DNA of 64,000 bases, taken from positions 1 to 64,000 of the forward strand of contig JAGUXT010000062.1 in NCBI GenBank assembly GCA_020061705.1. The letters are read 5' to 3'. The notes below the pieces were generated by a model. The model was given only the letters and a program-made list of their open reading frames with translations. It had not been told where the DNA came from and ran no database searches. Position numbers and translations under genes: made by a program. Below, piece by piece: positions 6,113 through 50,806 of this stretch (position 1 is its first letter; the number at the start of each line of letters is the position of its first letter). The stretch comes from Halothiobacillus sp. GTDB taxonomy: Bacteria; Pseudomonadota; Gammaproteobacteria; Halothiobacillales; Halothiobacillaceae.

Positions 6113-6169
6113 ATTGATGTGCCTGGAGTACTTTCAATGTACTGGACAACGGTTATGACGCAAACGTTA

Positions 6170-6257
6170 AACTGCCAAAATGTGCAGCATAAAGGGTACT
6201 TTGAAATGGTATTTTGTGGCGCGATGTGCCGTTTTGTGAGTGTTTGAATGGGTTCTT
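6170..6257 (-). repeat. Dispersed palindromic element, family 1, copy C (diverged)
   Basis: The right part (GATGTGCCGTTTTGTGAG to GGGTTCTT) aligns with the ends of the copies at 17547-17676 and 50660-50806, and the left part keeps the GCAGCAT core. It still has potential stem arms GCCAAAAT and ATTTTGTGGC. It is the least preserved copy and lies between the fimV terminator and truA, in the opposite orientation to both genes. Confidence 0.6.
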
Positions 6258-6286
6258 GCAAGCCAAAATGGAGTAGGTGATAAGGA

Positions 6287-17522: not shown

Positions 17523-17546
17523 TCCATGCGCCTCAAAATCTGCTTC

Positions 17547-17676
17547 ATCTTAATCAACGGATGCAGTGCAAACCAAAAATCACCAAAAAAGCGCAGCATA
17601 GACAGCTATGTGAGCATTTTGAGGTGGTTTTTTGTACCGCAATGCGCCGTTCAGTGAGAATTGGAATAGGTTCTTA
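17547..17676 (-). repeat. Dispersed palindromic element, family 1, copy A
   Basis: About 130 bases strongly similar to the element at 50660-50806 in opposite orientation. The stem arms 17573-17584 (CCAAAAATCACC) and 17623-17634 (GGTGGTTTTTTG) pair at 11 of 12 positions. Between them lies a conserved core, GCGCAGCATAG and CTATGTGAGC. Its right end, read on the minus strand, begins TAAGAACCT, and that TAA is the stop codon of the barrel gene. Confidence 0.8.
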
Positions 17677-18816
17677 AAACTGAACGTTAAAGCCAACACT
17701 AATGCCTTGCGCCCAATAGCTCGATGTGTTTAATGAAGCCTGGGGCTGAGCGGCTCCCTCCAGTGAGACGGGCTGCTCCCCGACATAAGACACGCTCTGC
17801 GTGGGATTGATGTTGCGGTTGATCTGATTACCCGGCCGAACCACATTGTTCGCATAAAGAAAGCTGTAGGCTGCGAAAATGGTGGCGGTAGGCGTCAGGC
17901 GGTAGCCAATATTCAGCTGAATTTCTGGGACAACGGCGAATTCACTTTGCGAGTGGCTACCTATATTCGTGGGCAACGCAAAGTAGCCGCCAGGATACGT
18001 ATGGGTCGCTCCATAATTCGTGAAATCGTTGGTCACGAGCGACCCGCTGATATCAACCTGCTGCTTCATGACACCCAGACCGAGCTTCGCTGTGCCGCCG
18101 ACGAACCAGTTGTCCTGATCGTATTGCGTCCGCGCCCCGATTTGCACACCATAAAAATTGTTCGACGTATCAAATGAGTCGTGCGTGTTCCAGATATCCG
18201 CAGGGTTGGGTGGGTTCCACGAGCTGCTGGTGTTAATTGCGTAGTCTTCCTTCAATTGCAGCCAGCGCAATCCGCCTATCACGTCCGTTTTCCATGCTCC
18301 GGACGCTGGCAGCGCCCAAGCAAGACCAGCCTCCAGACCCATCAGACTGTTGGTCAGCTCCTGCCGGGCACTACCACGGTAGGCGGGTGAATAGGAAAGC
18401 TCCGTCACGTTTTCGCGGTTCCGCGTGACATCGTAAAACGGAAGCAGTAGATCAACAGAGCCGATCTGTCCGGACGACTCGATACTGGCACTGTCCGAGC
18501 GTTCGCCAAGGTAAAGGAAGCTTCCTTCCAGCTTCAGGCGCTGGTCCAATGCGTAGCTGGCCGAGAGGCGTAAACCGGGAGTTGGGTTGGTATCCATGTC
18601 CCCGCCGCCCAGCAATACATTCGTCCCCGCTTGACCATACAGGCCATCGGTAATGATCGGTGTCGGCGTCGGGCTGGCTTTCTGCCACAACAGGAGCGCT
18701 TCGGCTTGCAGGGTTAACGGGGTCGCTGTGGCAGTGTCACTGGCTGTCGCTTGGGCTGAGAGGTGTCCGCCGGTGAGTGCCAGCGATGCAAACGCCATGA
18801 ACATCCGGTTACGCAT
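17674..18816 (-). CDS. Outer-membrane beta-barrel protein, BBP7-like
   Basis: A 380-residue secreted protein. ATG 18816 (MRNRMFMAFASLALTGGHLSAQA) opens a signal peptide; an in-frame upstream ATG at 18852 would spoil it. Alternating hydrophobic strands, many Tyr/Trp, a mid-barrel GLEAGLAWALP and a last strand ending in Phe (VGFNVQF) mark an outer-membrane barrel. The opening EALLLWQKASPTPTPIIT and LGGGDMDTNPTPGLRLSASY resemble the BBP7 group of barrels best known from planctomycetes, a placement I make from memory of the pattern only. Porin or surface function is inferred. The gene ends inside repeat copy A. Confidence 0.7.
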   Translation of the reverse strand: MRNRMFMAFASLALTGGHLSAQATASDTATATPLTLQAEALLLWQKASPTPTPIITDGLYGQAGTNVLLGGGDMDTNPTPGLRLSASYALDQRLKLEGSFLYLGERSDSASIESSGQIGSVDLLLPFYDVTRNRENVTELSYSPAYRGSARQELTNSLMGLEAGLAWALPASGAWKTDVIGGLRWLQLKEDYAINTSSSWNPPNPADIWNTHDSFDTSNNFYGVQIGARTQYDQDNWFVGGTAKLGLGVMKQQVDISGSLVTNDFTNYGATHTYPGGYFALPTNIGSHSQSEFAVVPEIQLNIGYRLTPTATIFAAYSFLYANNVVRPGNQINRNINPTQSVSYVGEQPVSLEGAAQPQASLNTSSYWAQGISVGFNVQF

Positions 18817-18890
18817 GGGTAATCTCCATTGAATCTGGTGTTTAGGAGGCATTACTAAACTATGTTCTTCGTTAGCACGGGTGAATTTCG

Positions 18891-48103: not shown

Positions 48104-50662
48104 ATGACCTGCACGCTGTATTCCCTGGAAGTTCAACCTGTTATCCCTGTTGAACTACAATGTTTGCACGAATTCGCTAATAACCTTGCTTACAGCTGGA
48201 GTCGCAAGATTCGCGGACTTTTCTTCAGAATGGATGGCGAGTTATGGGCGGCATGTGGTCATAATCCCAAGGTTTTCTTGCGCAGGGTGTCGCAAGAACG
48301 TGTGGACGAGGCACTGGCGGATCCAAGCTACATGTTCGATCTGGAAGAAGCTCGCGCACAGGTGCGCCGTTATCTGGCGGACCCTATTCATCCCCAACTT
48401 GCACCAAAACTTGACCCCAGTAAGGATTTAATCGCTTATTTTTGTGCGGAATATGGTTTCCACGAAAGTTTCCCGATTTATTCGGGAGGCTTGGGTATTT
48501 TGGCCGGAGATCATTGCAAGGCGGCAAGTGACCTTGGTTTGCCGTTTGTGGCGGTGGGTTTGTTATATCGTGTGGGCTATTTTAATCAGACCTTTGATAA
48601 GGATGGGCACCAAATTGAGACCTCGCCTCCGGTGGATTTTGCCGACTTGCCAGTGGTGCCCGCGCGTAATCCAAATGGTGAAGAAGTAACGTTTGCCCTG
48701 GACTATCCTGGTCGCAAAGTTCAGGTGAAAGTCTGGCAGGCAATGATTGGGCGGGTGCGTTTGTTCTTGTTGGATACTGATATTGAAGGCAATAGTGCAG
48801 AAGATCGAAAAATCACCTATCAGCTGTATGGCGGTGGGCGAGAAATGCGTATTCAGCAGGAAATTTTGCTCGGTATTGGTGGTGTCCGCGCCCTGCGAGC
48901 CCTGGATTTGCATCCCAATGTTTGGCACATGAACGAAGGGCATGCCTCCTTCATTGTTCTGGAGCGCAGCCGCGAGTGGGTAGCGCAGGGTATGAGTTTC
49001 AAGGAGGCTTTGGAGTGTACTGCGGCTAATGCAGTGTTTACCACGCATACGCCTGTACCTGCTGGACATGATGTGTTTGATGCCGGTTTGGTTGAGCACT
49101 ACTTGTCCGATATGCGTAACGCTCTCGGATTAACGGCTGGCGAGTTTATGAGTTTGGGCGATTTGGCACCATCACCGGCAAATTTCAACATGACTACTCT
49201 TGCGCTGCGTGGATCGCGCATGCACAACGGCGTGAGCAAAATTCACGGCGAAGTGGCTTCGCGTATGGAGCAGGCGCACTGGCCTGAGATTGAGCCAGAA
49301 GAAAATCCGATCGCGCATGTCACCAACGGGGTGCATGTAGGAACATGGTTGGCACGGGATTGGGCAAACTTTTTCGATCAGCTTCAGCGCGATTGGCATG
49401 AACACTTGTGTGATCGTAATTTCTGGGAGCACATGGTCGAACAAATTCCTGACCTACGCTACTGGAGCGTGCATCAGTCGCTCAAACGCGAAATGTTCGA
49501 TGATGTAGAGGCGCGAATTACCAGACAGTACCGTCGCACCGGGCGGAGTGAAACCACGTTGCACAAAGCGCTGAGCATGATTAATCAGTCCGAACAGGAC
49601 ATGCTGGTAGTCGGCTTTGCACGCCGTTTTGCCACCTACAAGCGCGCCTTGCTGGTATTTAATGATCTTGAAGCCTTGGCGCGGTTGGTCAATGATCCCC
49701 AGCGCCCGGTGGTGTTTATTTTTGCCGGTAAGGCGCACCCTGCCGATGAACCGGGGCAGGAATTGATTCGCCGAATTTGGGAAATTTCACAGCGCCCTGA
49801 GTTCCTTGGCAAAGTACTTTTGGTTGAAGGTTATGACATGGAACTGGCGCGGAAGCTCGTGACCGGGGTGGATGTGTGGCTGAATACGCCGGAGTATCCA
49901 CTTGAGGCCAGCGGCACGTCCGGGCAGAAAGCAGGATTGAATGGCGCATTAAACTTAAGCGTGCTGGATGGCTGGTGGGGCGAAGGTTTTGAAGGTGATA
50001 ACGGTTGGGGCATTGTGCCGCATGGAGCGCAGTATTCGGCAGATTATCGCAATGCCCAAGAATCACGCGATTTGATCGAAACCCTGAGTAATGATGTCAT
50101 TCCGCTGTATTTTGCGCGTGATCGCGGCAGTTATTCCAGTGGTTGGGTACAGCGCTCCAAGGCTTCCATGGCGAGTATTCTGCCGCGCTTTAATAGTGAG
50201 CGCCAAGTCCTTGATTATACGCATGAGTTTTATATCAAGGCGCTACACAATGGACGTAAGTTAGATGGTGGACATGGTGTTCTGGCGCGTGAGTTGGCGG
50301 ATTGGAAAGCGCGGGTGTGTGCGAAATGGCACAAGATCAAGGCAGAGCGTCTTGATATACCGCCAGCACATTTGATTACGGGACAGGCGCTTGAAATTCG
50401 TGTTGCAGTGGATATTGATGGCCTTATGCCTGCGGATGTACGAGTGGAGTGTCAGTTTGGTGTGCTGGATGAAAATGGTCAGTTCGTATTGCGTGCGCAT
50501 TACCTGTGTACAGCGGTCGAGCGTGATGAGCAGGGTCGTCAGCTGTATGTGTTGCACTTAGAGCCTGACATGGCGGGCTTGCAAAACTATCGACTGCGTC
50601 TGGCACCGTGGCATCCTGCGCTGACGCATCCTTATGAAATGGGCTTTATGCGCTGGTTGTAA
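48104..50662 (+). CDS. glgP: Alpha-glucan phosphorylase
   Basis: PLP-dependent GT35 enzyme releasing glucose-1-phosphate from glycogen or maltodextrin. The 852 residues match the subgroup found in many bacteria and archaea: an N-terminal DUF3417-like segment (LHEFANNLAYSWSRKIRGLF), IAYFCAEYGFHESFPIYSGGLGILAGDH, VWHMNEGHASF, GFARRFATYKRALLVFND and the PLP/substrate site EASGTSGQKAGLNGALNLSVLDGWWGE split over its conserved residues. No other glycogen genes are in the window. The TAA stop is the first triplet of the repeat at 50660-50806. Confidence 0.92.
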   Translation: MTCTLYSLEVQPVIPVELQCLHEFANNLAYSWSRKIRGLFFRMDGELWAACGHNPKVFLRRVSQERVDEALADPSYMFDLEEARAQVRRYLADPIHPQLAPKLDPSKDLIAYFCAEYGFHESFPIYSGGLGILAGDHCKAASDLGLPFVAVGLLYRVGYFNQTFDKDGHQIETSPPVDFADLPVVPARNPNGEEVTFALDYPGRKVQVKVWQAMIGRVRLFLLDTDIEGNSAEDRKITYQLYGGGREMRIQQEILLGIGGVRALRALDLHPNVWHMNEGHASFIVLERSREWVAQGMSFKEALECTAANAVFTTHTPVPAGHDVFDAGLVEHYLSDMRNALGLTAGEFMSLGDLAPSPANFNMTTLALRGSRMHNGVSKIHGEVASRMEQAHWPEIEPEENPIAHVTNGVHVGTWLARDWANFFDQLQRDWHEHLCDRNFWEHMVEQIPDLRYWSVHQSLKREMFDDVEARITRQYRRTGRSETTLHKALSMINQSEQDMLVVGFARRFATYKRALLVFNDLEALARLVNDPQRPVVFIFAGKAHPADEPGQELIRRIWEISQRPEFLGKVLLVEGYDMELARKLVTGVDVWLNTPEYPLEASGTSGQKAGLNGALNLSVLDGWWGEGFEGDNGWGIVPHGAQYSADYRNAQESRDLIETLSNDVIPLYFARDRGSYSSGWVQRSKASMASILPRFNSERQVLDYTHEFYIKALHNGRKLDGGHGVLARELADWKARVCAKWHKIKAERLDIPPAHLITGQALEIRVAVDIDGLMPADVRVECQFGVLDENGQFVLRAHYLCTAVERDEQGRQLYVLHLEPDMAGLQNYRLRLAPWHPALTHPYEMGFMRWL

Positions 50663-50806
50663 GAACCTGTTTACGATCTCGCTGAACGGCGCATTGCGGC
50701 GCAGAAATTAGCCTCAAAATGCTCACATAGTTATCTATGCTGCGCTTTTTCAGCTAATTTCTGCTTGCACTGCATCCGTTGATCAAGGTCGAAATCAGGT
50801 TCTGAG
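50660..50806 (+). repeat. Dispersed palindromic element, family 1, copy B
   Basis: Begins TAAGAACCT (its TAA is the phosphorylase stop) and contains perfect 12-bp stem arms 50701-50712 (GCAGAAATTAGC) and 50753-50764 (GCTAATTTCTGC) around a core CTCACATAG/CTATGCTGCGC. Aligns in reverse with 17547-17676. Confidence 0.8.

Follow-up and report, generated by a model that had tools for sequence, protein, structure and literature searches.

Two dispersed elements in a 64,000-nucleotide stretch of Halothiobacillus sp. DNA (contig JAGUXT010000062.1, positions 1–64,000; the window) belong to a superfamily of ~140-bp MITEs that is related to ERIC, ends in IS5-type inverted repeats and contains a hairpin body selected as a single strand, probably as RNA. 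We assign this reading a probability of roughly two in three (0.68). The elements are mobile, their IS5-type ends are exchangeable, the single-stranded hairpin is conserved, and the superfamily, spread over Gamma-, Beta- and Deltaproteobacteria, is related to ERIC. ERIC sequences have been known since 1990–91, and a typing PCR in wide use is named after them. An earlier note on the window had described a dispersed element with a covarying stem; the transposon nature, the swapping of ends between genomes and the ERIC link are absent from that account.

Copies in the host genome fall into two groups by their ends, F1 (GAACCTGTTTACGATC) and F2 (GGGCACTTCTATAAATTC), around a common core (GAAAAAGCGCAGCATA-loop-TATGTGAGCATTTTGAG). 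The window holds copies A and B and a relic, C, with the following features.

17536–17673, plus strand (sense): copy A, whole element, 138 bp, with decayed F1-type ends; delimited by sequence, alignment and covariance-model matches
17533–17535: left flank of A, TCA, a target-site remnant by its sequence and the family-wide TNA duplication
17674–17676: right flank of A, TTA, read on the minus strand as the TAA stop codon of a BBP7 porin gene (17674–18852)
17573–17584, plus strand: 5′ inner arm of A, CCAAAAATCACC
17623–17634, plus strand: 3′ inner arm of A, GGTGGTTTTTTG
17586–17622, plus strand: conserved core of A, AAAAAGCGCAGCATAGACAGCTATGTGAGCATTTTGA, with G-A/G-A loops, bulged A, G-U pair and 5-bp apical helix
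50663–50802, minus strand (sense): copy B, whole element, 140 bp, with inverted ends GAACCTG...CAGGTTC; delimited by sequence, folds and model match
50660–50662, plus strand: flank of B, TAA, the stop codon of an 852-aa alpha-glucan phosphorylase gene (48104–50662)
50803–50805: other flank of B, TCA on the minus strand
50753–50764, minus strand: 5′ inner arm of B, GCAGAAATTAGC
50701–50712, minus strand: 3′ inner arm of B, GCTAATTTCTGC
50713–50751, minus strand: conserved core of B, GAAAAAGCGCAGCATAGATAACTATGTGAGCATTTTGAG
about 6140–6260, plus strand: copy C, a degraded F1-type relic with its core deleted that no longer folds; recognised by alignment to A

A and B are near-palindromes from end to end, with the outer ends of A decayed. 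Against dinucleotide shuffles, the RNA fold of A reaches z = −4.0 (0/200) and that of B z = −7.1 (0/200 shuffles as good; z = −5.9 as DNA). Covariance models R1/R2 match A at 17563–17645 (E = 2e-19) and 17552–17656 (E = 2.6e-18), and R2 matches B at 50680–50784 (E = 4e-21). The inner arms lie and pair as the earlier note had claimed, with 10 Watson-Crick pairs, one G-U and one C-U mismatch in A (11/12 counting wobble) and 12/12 pairs on the minus strand in B; at four arm positions (1, 4, 9 and 11) both partners differ between the two copies. The note had also placed the elements correctly, but had drawn their extent too small. Its third, degraded copy near 6.2 kb is genuine: 58 bases of C align to A, a score equalled by 0/2000 shuffles, making C the best other match in the window. 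Its hairpin is lost (fold z = +0.4, no covariance-model match).

From A and B alone, compensatory change had been taken to indicate selection on a folded form, and a genome-wide collection of copies with a covariation check had been proposed. This claim now holds far beyond two copies: stem changes are compensated rather than random in an alignment of 101 copies fitted to a covariance model. There, 92% of pair cells are paired, compared with 36–40% when the partner is slid by 1–3 columns; double-sided changes occur in 23 of 27 pairs, and the covariation score is 0.46 versus 0.15 in shuffles, none of 500 reaching 0.46. A set of 35 sequences gathered without a model gave a similar picture (91.8% of pair cells paired versus 32–44% with slid partners). 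The apical helix covaries in distant copies (CATAC/GTATG, CATAG/CTATG, TTTAC/GTAAA, TGTAC/GTACA, CTTAC/GTAAG and TTGAC/GTCAA), and GC/GC in the core changes to CC/GG in several genomes.

The unpaired positions are fixed. They comprise a pair of G-A/G-A loops, a single bulged A and AAGGC facing AACGC, together with a G-U pair that hardly varies. Among 57 diverged copies (pairwise difference >15%), four features each survive in 51–56: G-A/G-A in the lower loop, GNA/GA in the upper one, the bulged A and the G that faces U. At the foot of the apical helix, G-U is kept in 51 of the 57, its sole replacements being A-U or G-C. The body thus reads 5′ AAGGC - arm - GA - AAAAGC - GNA - G.nnnnC - loop, followed in the 3′ half by Gnnnn.U - GA - GC - A - UUUU - GA - arm′ - AACGC 3′. 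Fixed loops within freely drifting yet paired stems are the mark of a structured nucleic acid.

Within its own genome (2.27 Mb in 62 contigs), the element was found at 36 places by BLAST and in 30 copies by covariance model at E ≤ 0.01, most of them well below 1e-9. Scanning 84,980 species genomes for the exact core yielded 58 stretches, which come from Desulfobacterales, Coxiella-type genomes, Legionella, Nitrosomonas, Gallionellaceae, Methylococcaceae, Halothiobacillus and unclassified Gammaproteobacteria; copies in the other taxa bear still other ends. In surveys, 121 of 369 gammaproteobacterial genomes (101 of 272 genera) were positive with the covariance model at E ≤ 1e-5, as were 105 of 398 genomes across the phylum with a second model, and the order survey found copies in 5 of 27 genomes. 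Distribution within the family is patchy, with 30 copies in the own genome, 29 in one genome of another genus (G018) and 0–2 in nearly all others, as expected of a mobile element. Plasmid and phage records searched with B gave no match, and the same search with the G148 copy at L193 returned Pseudomonas veronii, Halomonas and Fukatsuia records. Separately, IMG/VR viral contigs hold two core matches, L391 and L392, the latter a full-looking element with a GGGCACCTCTAAAAACG-type end that is possibly host DNA beside a prophage. None of the curated Rfam models matches A or B, and a relaxed scan of eight loci produced one sub-threshold hit (E = 0.07). Elsewhere in the window, a TwoAYGGAY RNA (RF01731; 62534–62688, plus strand; 67.6 bits, above the gathering score) forms two hairpins with ATGGAT loops.

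The elements have the hallmarks of MITEs: they are short, lack an ORF of their own and carry terminal inverted repeats of three families, and their commonest length is 139–141 bp in all three despite the different ends. Insertion is recorded by target duplications, the flanks being identical in 35 of 74 copies with both ends (~0.6 expected by chance). Identical 3-mers flank 12 of 23 F1 copies (TTA 6, TAA 3, TCA 2, CAA 1; chance ~0.4) and identical 4-mers 9 of 19 F2 copies (chance ~0.07). The CAGGCTG-type copies show duplications in 14 of 32 cases (chance ~0.1), all of them YTAR (TTAA 5, CTAG 5, CTAA 3, TTAG 1). The flanks of A and B themselves, TCA/TTA, are not identical as duplications and count against our reading.

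Both the ends and the YTAR and TNA targets are those of IS5 subgroups, the ends recurring on elements with NF033581 and NF033580 IS5 transposases. A DDE transposase search yielded two autonomous IS5-family elements, L262 (282 aa, NF033581), whose ends GAGACCTTTGCACGA are those of MITE L185, and L277 (257 aa, NF033580), whose ends GAACCTATCTCAAAAT are those of Desulfobacterales copies; both have element-type ends without the hairpin body. From these matches we infer that IS5-family transposases would mobilise the MITEs in trans. The IS5-type transposase domain PF01609 is absent from the own genome and from G018, and partner-type insertion sequences occur only elsewhere; in the own genome, the mobiliser has perhaps been lost or lies in unassembled sequence. 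A MITE does not require a partner insertion sequence in the same genome, and such partners are often lost. Lone end sequences were also examined as traces of a partner in G148, G356 and G351, and none flanks a transposase gene: a 675-bp spacing of lone ends reflects nested insertion of other palindromes, and another is a remnant beside ordinary genes. In G148, an element at L241 (1500–2175) carries two further long palindromic elements nested at its apex, with ends TAAGACAAACGATAACAAAG and GGGCCTGTTAACACTATCCCAATGGG.

Five copies in the own genome (L033, L035, L040, L046 and L051) retain F1 or F2 ends, but their body has been lost or exchanged for other sequence; insertion thus does not strictly require the body, which also counts against our reading. 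Together with the body-less insertion sequences and the varying ends on a common body, these copies identify ends and body as separable modules. Additional hairpins were observed as well. A ~60–75-bp hairpin module (CTTGGGCAAGGATGCCCAAG...GAGAACAGGACGCG) is inserted in the right arm of F2-type and some F1-type elements (L018, L023, L026, L027, L012 and L051 in the own genome), with a similar one in L163 and L167 of G018; L051 combines the module with F2 ends and has no core. In L035 and L046, F1-type ends surround unrelated palindromes (GTAGGTGCGAA...TTCGCACCTAC; CCCCCCTTTGGAAAAGGGGGG), which suggests that other hairpins ride on the same ends.

The relationship to ERIC was examined with ERIC sequences taken from records of Klebsiella, Citrobacter, Enterobacter, Rahnella and E. 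coli. Like the present elements, ERIC is an intergenic imperfect palindrome of similar size that forms one long stem-loop, and both share the ordered signatures AAGGC ... GA ... GA-G[5 bp]loop[5 bp]U-GA ... AACGC and the apical helix variants CATAG/CTATG, CATAC/GTATG and CTTAC/GTAAG. The G-U pair is invariant in ERIC (7/7) and nearly invariant in the window-type elements. R2, built without any ERIC, matches four of eight ERICs at E 1.6e-5 to 1.5e-4 and the E. coli copy at 0.0035 (E is rough for both models), two more at the apex only and two not at all. Conversely, R3, built from seven ERICs only and run with filters off over 92 kb around 30 elements, places nearly all of its matches with E < 0.3 on the elements, in register (best E, likewise rough, 4.4e-10, 1.8e-7 and 3.9e-6; B 0.003, A 0.014) and on the sense strand only. 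Palindromy alone would score both strands about equally, so the sense-only matches serve as an internal control. We conclude that the body, or at least its structured centre, is of common descent with ERIC.

Nevertheless, A and B are not called ERICs, because length and target duplication differ: they have the hairpin signatures of ERIC sensu stricto, but neither its 127-bp length nor its TA duplication. ERIC is 127 bp long, duplicates TA and is hosted by enterobacteria or Vibrio (PMC2229807, PMC2759123), whereas the present elements measure 138–141 bp, carry IS5-type ends, duplicate TNA, YTAR or 4-bp targets and are found across many other proteobacteria. A further difference lies in the lower stem (CCCCAG/CTGGGG in ERIC versus AAAAGC/GC-A-UUUU here), and similarity at BLAST level was not found, L193 giving no match in E. 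coli genomes, all of which have ERICs. Scored with the ERIC-only model, a palindrome beside a G148 copy (L193, 1334–1453) reaches 20 bits on the minus strand (E = 0.0017) and 11.6 on the plus strand, and is possibly a further relative. In Yersinia, ERIC RNA is reported to affect mRNA stability via RNase E in an orientation-dependent manner (PMC2229807).

Several other known systems bear comparison. Correia/NEMIS of Neisseria are MITEs of ~100–160 bp whose long hairpins are processed in transcripts (PMC2229807, PMC10969869); they resemble the present elements in being hairpin-forming MITEs of about this size but differ, by description, in their ends, TA duplication and IHF site, with no shared sequence known. 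QMITE2 (CbsR16) of Coxiella burnetii is a repeated hairpin MITE of ~170–190 bp with low-level transcription (PMC5896051). It is likewise a repeated hairpin MITE, and the exact core of our elements occurs in other Coxiella-type genomes; compared by description alone, its duplications of 7–9 bp are unlike the 3–4 bp seen here. IS5-family insertion sequences have matching ends and 3–4-bp duplications, but encode a transposase and have no hairpin body. REP/REPIN elements with RAYT are likewise dispersed intergenic palindromes, whereas the present elements lack the GTAG foot, show DDE-type duplications and have no RAYT association: the RAYT domain PF01797 is uncorrelated with copy number, and G018 has 29 copies and zero RAYT. 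The own genome does contain two adjacent RAYT-type (PF01797) genes (G000:C61:22026-22943), and REP-type elements may also exist there. Resemblances to an IHF consensus (the spacing to TTR does not fit), to a kink-turn (the 3-nt bulge and GA geometry are absent) and to attC (the AAC/GTT boxes are absent) were considered and dropped.

Which strand folds can be read from mismatches, since G-T pairs exceed A-C mismatches. The counts were 97 versus 43 over all copies and 54 versus 33 among diverged representatives in the model-fitted alignment; a repeat restricted to arms from copies that exact-core or BLAST searches had located gave 32 versus 7 (representatives, 11 versus 3; p = 0.057). In both cases the larger counts are inflated by relatedness of copies. 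This excess marks the strand reading GAAAAAGCGC as the folded one, and the one-sided G-U preference shows that the sense strand acts as a single strand. That strand could also be selected as DNA, with the sense hairpin extruded or exposed during replication, transformation or as a transposition intermediate and recognised by a protein like attC or REP hairpins. Such a DNA form would give the same covariation and the same strand preference, the element is mobile DNA, and Py-GA-Pu tandem G-A pairs form in DNA too. We nonetheless consider selection of a DNA form unlikely, though it keeps appreciable weight. Four complete genomes show no replication-strand bias (18/42, p = 0.44), RAYT transposases do not track copy number, and a conserved G-T mismatch would be awkward under mismatch repair.

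Insertion sites also invite a host-centred explanation. Elements sit at stop codons in 25 of 72 cases versus 78 of 665 matched nearby target sites (p = 2e-6, with a crude control); A adjoins the TAA of the BBP7 porin gene and B that of the alpha-glucan phosphorylase gene, so that the target flank serves as stop codon. Hosts might therefore keep the elements as cis-acting mRNA devices at gene ends, whether terminators, 3′-end protectors or RNase III sites, and transcripts of ERIC and Correia/NEMIS are indeed RNase-processed (PMC2229807, PMC10969869). Orientation relative to flanking genes is nevertheless unbiased (28 same, 31 opposite), so individual copies bear no sign of retention for an RNA effect on their hosts' genes, and close relatives mostly have 0–2 copies where two have 29–30; a cis-acting device is improbable. 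The lack of both gene and replication bias indicates that the selected property is the element's own propagation or a role in trans, not an effect at the insertion site.

Pairing could in principle arise by mutation, one palindrome arm templating the other during replication. Quasi-palindrome correction of this kind is a well-known mechanism and would account for the rapid matched drift of the arms without any function. It would, however, repair the mismatches, bulges and G-U, which are kept in >90% of diverged copies, and it predicts equal G-T and A-C, against the 97:43 and 32:7 seen. The same unpaired signature is moreover common to ERIC, and we judge a purely mutational origin very improbable. 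That A and B, the only two well-preserved copies in the window, are simple recent duplicates with chance stem differences, the refuting case named in the earlier note, is itself refuted by the 30 genome copies, the hundreds elsewhere and the covariation over 101 copies.

The reading we prefer, an ERIC-related MITE with a selected single-stranded hairpin, would operate through two modules. Exchangeable ends of ~15–20 bp matching IS5-family insertion sequences would be cut by an IS5-family transposase acting in trans, with TNA, YTAR and other 4-bp sequences as the targets of insertion; insertion would often fall at a gene's stop codon, where the duplicated target would keep the stop codon in place. 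The second module is the conserved hairpin body, its paired positions drifting with compensation while its unpaired signatures stay fixed. RNA that binds proteins typically shows features such as tandem G-A pairs, one bulged A and a G-U that is retained. Given these motifs, the failed DNA-strand prediction and the RNA effect of Yersinia ERIC, the folded form is most likely RNA. Sense RNA may arise by read-through from neighbouring genes or by some copies' own transcription, and a conserved host RNA factor, for example an RNase, would bind or cleave it, as reported for Yersinia ERIC; we infer both this RNA step and any benefit that the element draws from it. More tentatively still, and with less than even confidence, ERIC and its relatives may constitute a single, very ancient selfish hairpin module present in Gamma-, Beta- and Deltaproteobacteria. 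This module would persist by swapping ends to exploit successive transposases, IS5-type ones and, in ERIC, TA-targeting ones, and its folded RNA would be kept because it binds a conserved host factor.

MITEs are familiar from bacteria (PMC10969869), and a 2008 catalogue of stem-loop families included ERIC and YPAL (PMC2267715). A 2008 review described transposase-driven movement of such bacterial elements as lacking experimental support and knew no ERIC DNA motif beyond the terminal repeats (PMC2229807). In the openly accessible literature we found no account of the superfamily or its end exchange, and no ERIC relatives outside Enterobacterales and Vibrionaceae. In our analysis ERICs appear to form the enterobacterial branch of a superfamily found throughout the proteobacteria, and recognisable IS5-type ends and duplications mark its remaining branches, so that the question of ERIC mobility becomes directly testable in hosts with both element and transposase. 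The fixed loop signatures provide precise bait for an RNA- or DNA-binding partner, and by occupying stop codons a transposon can insert and leave genes intact.
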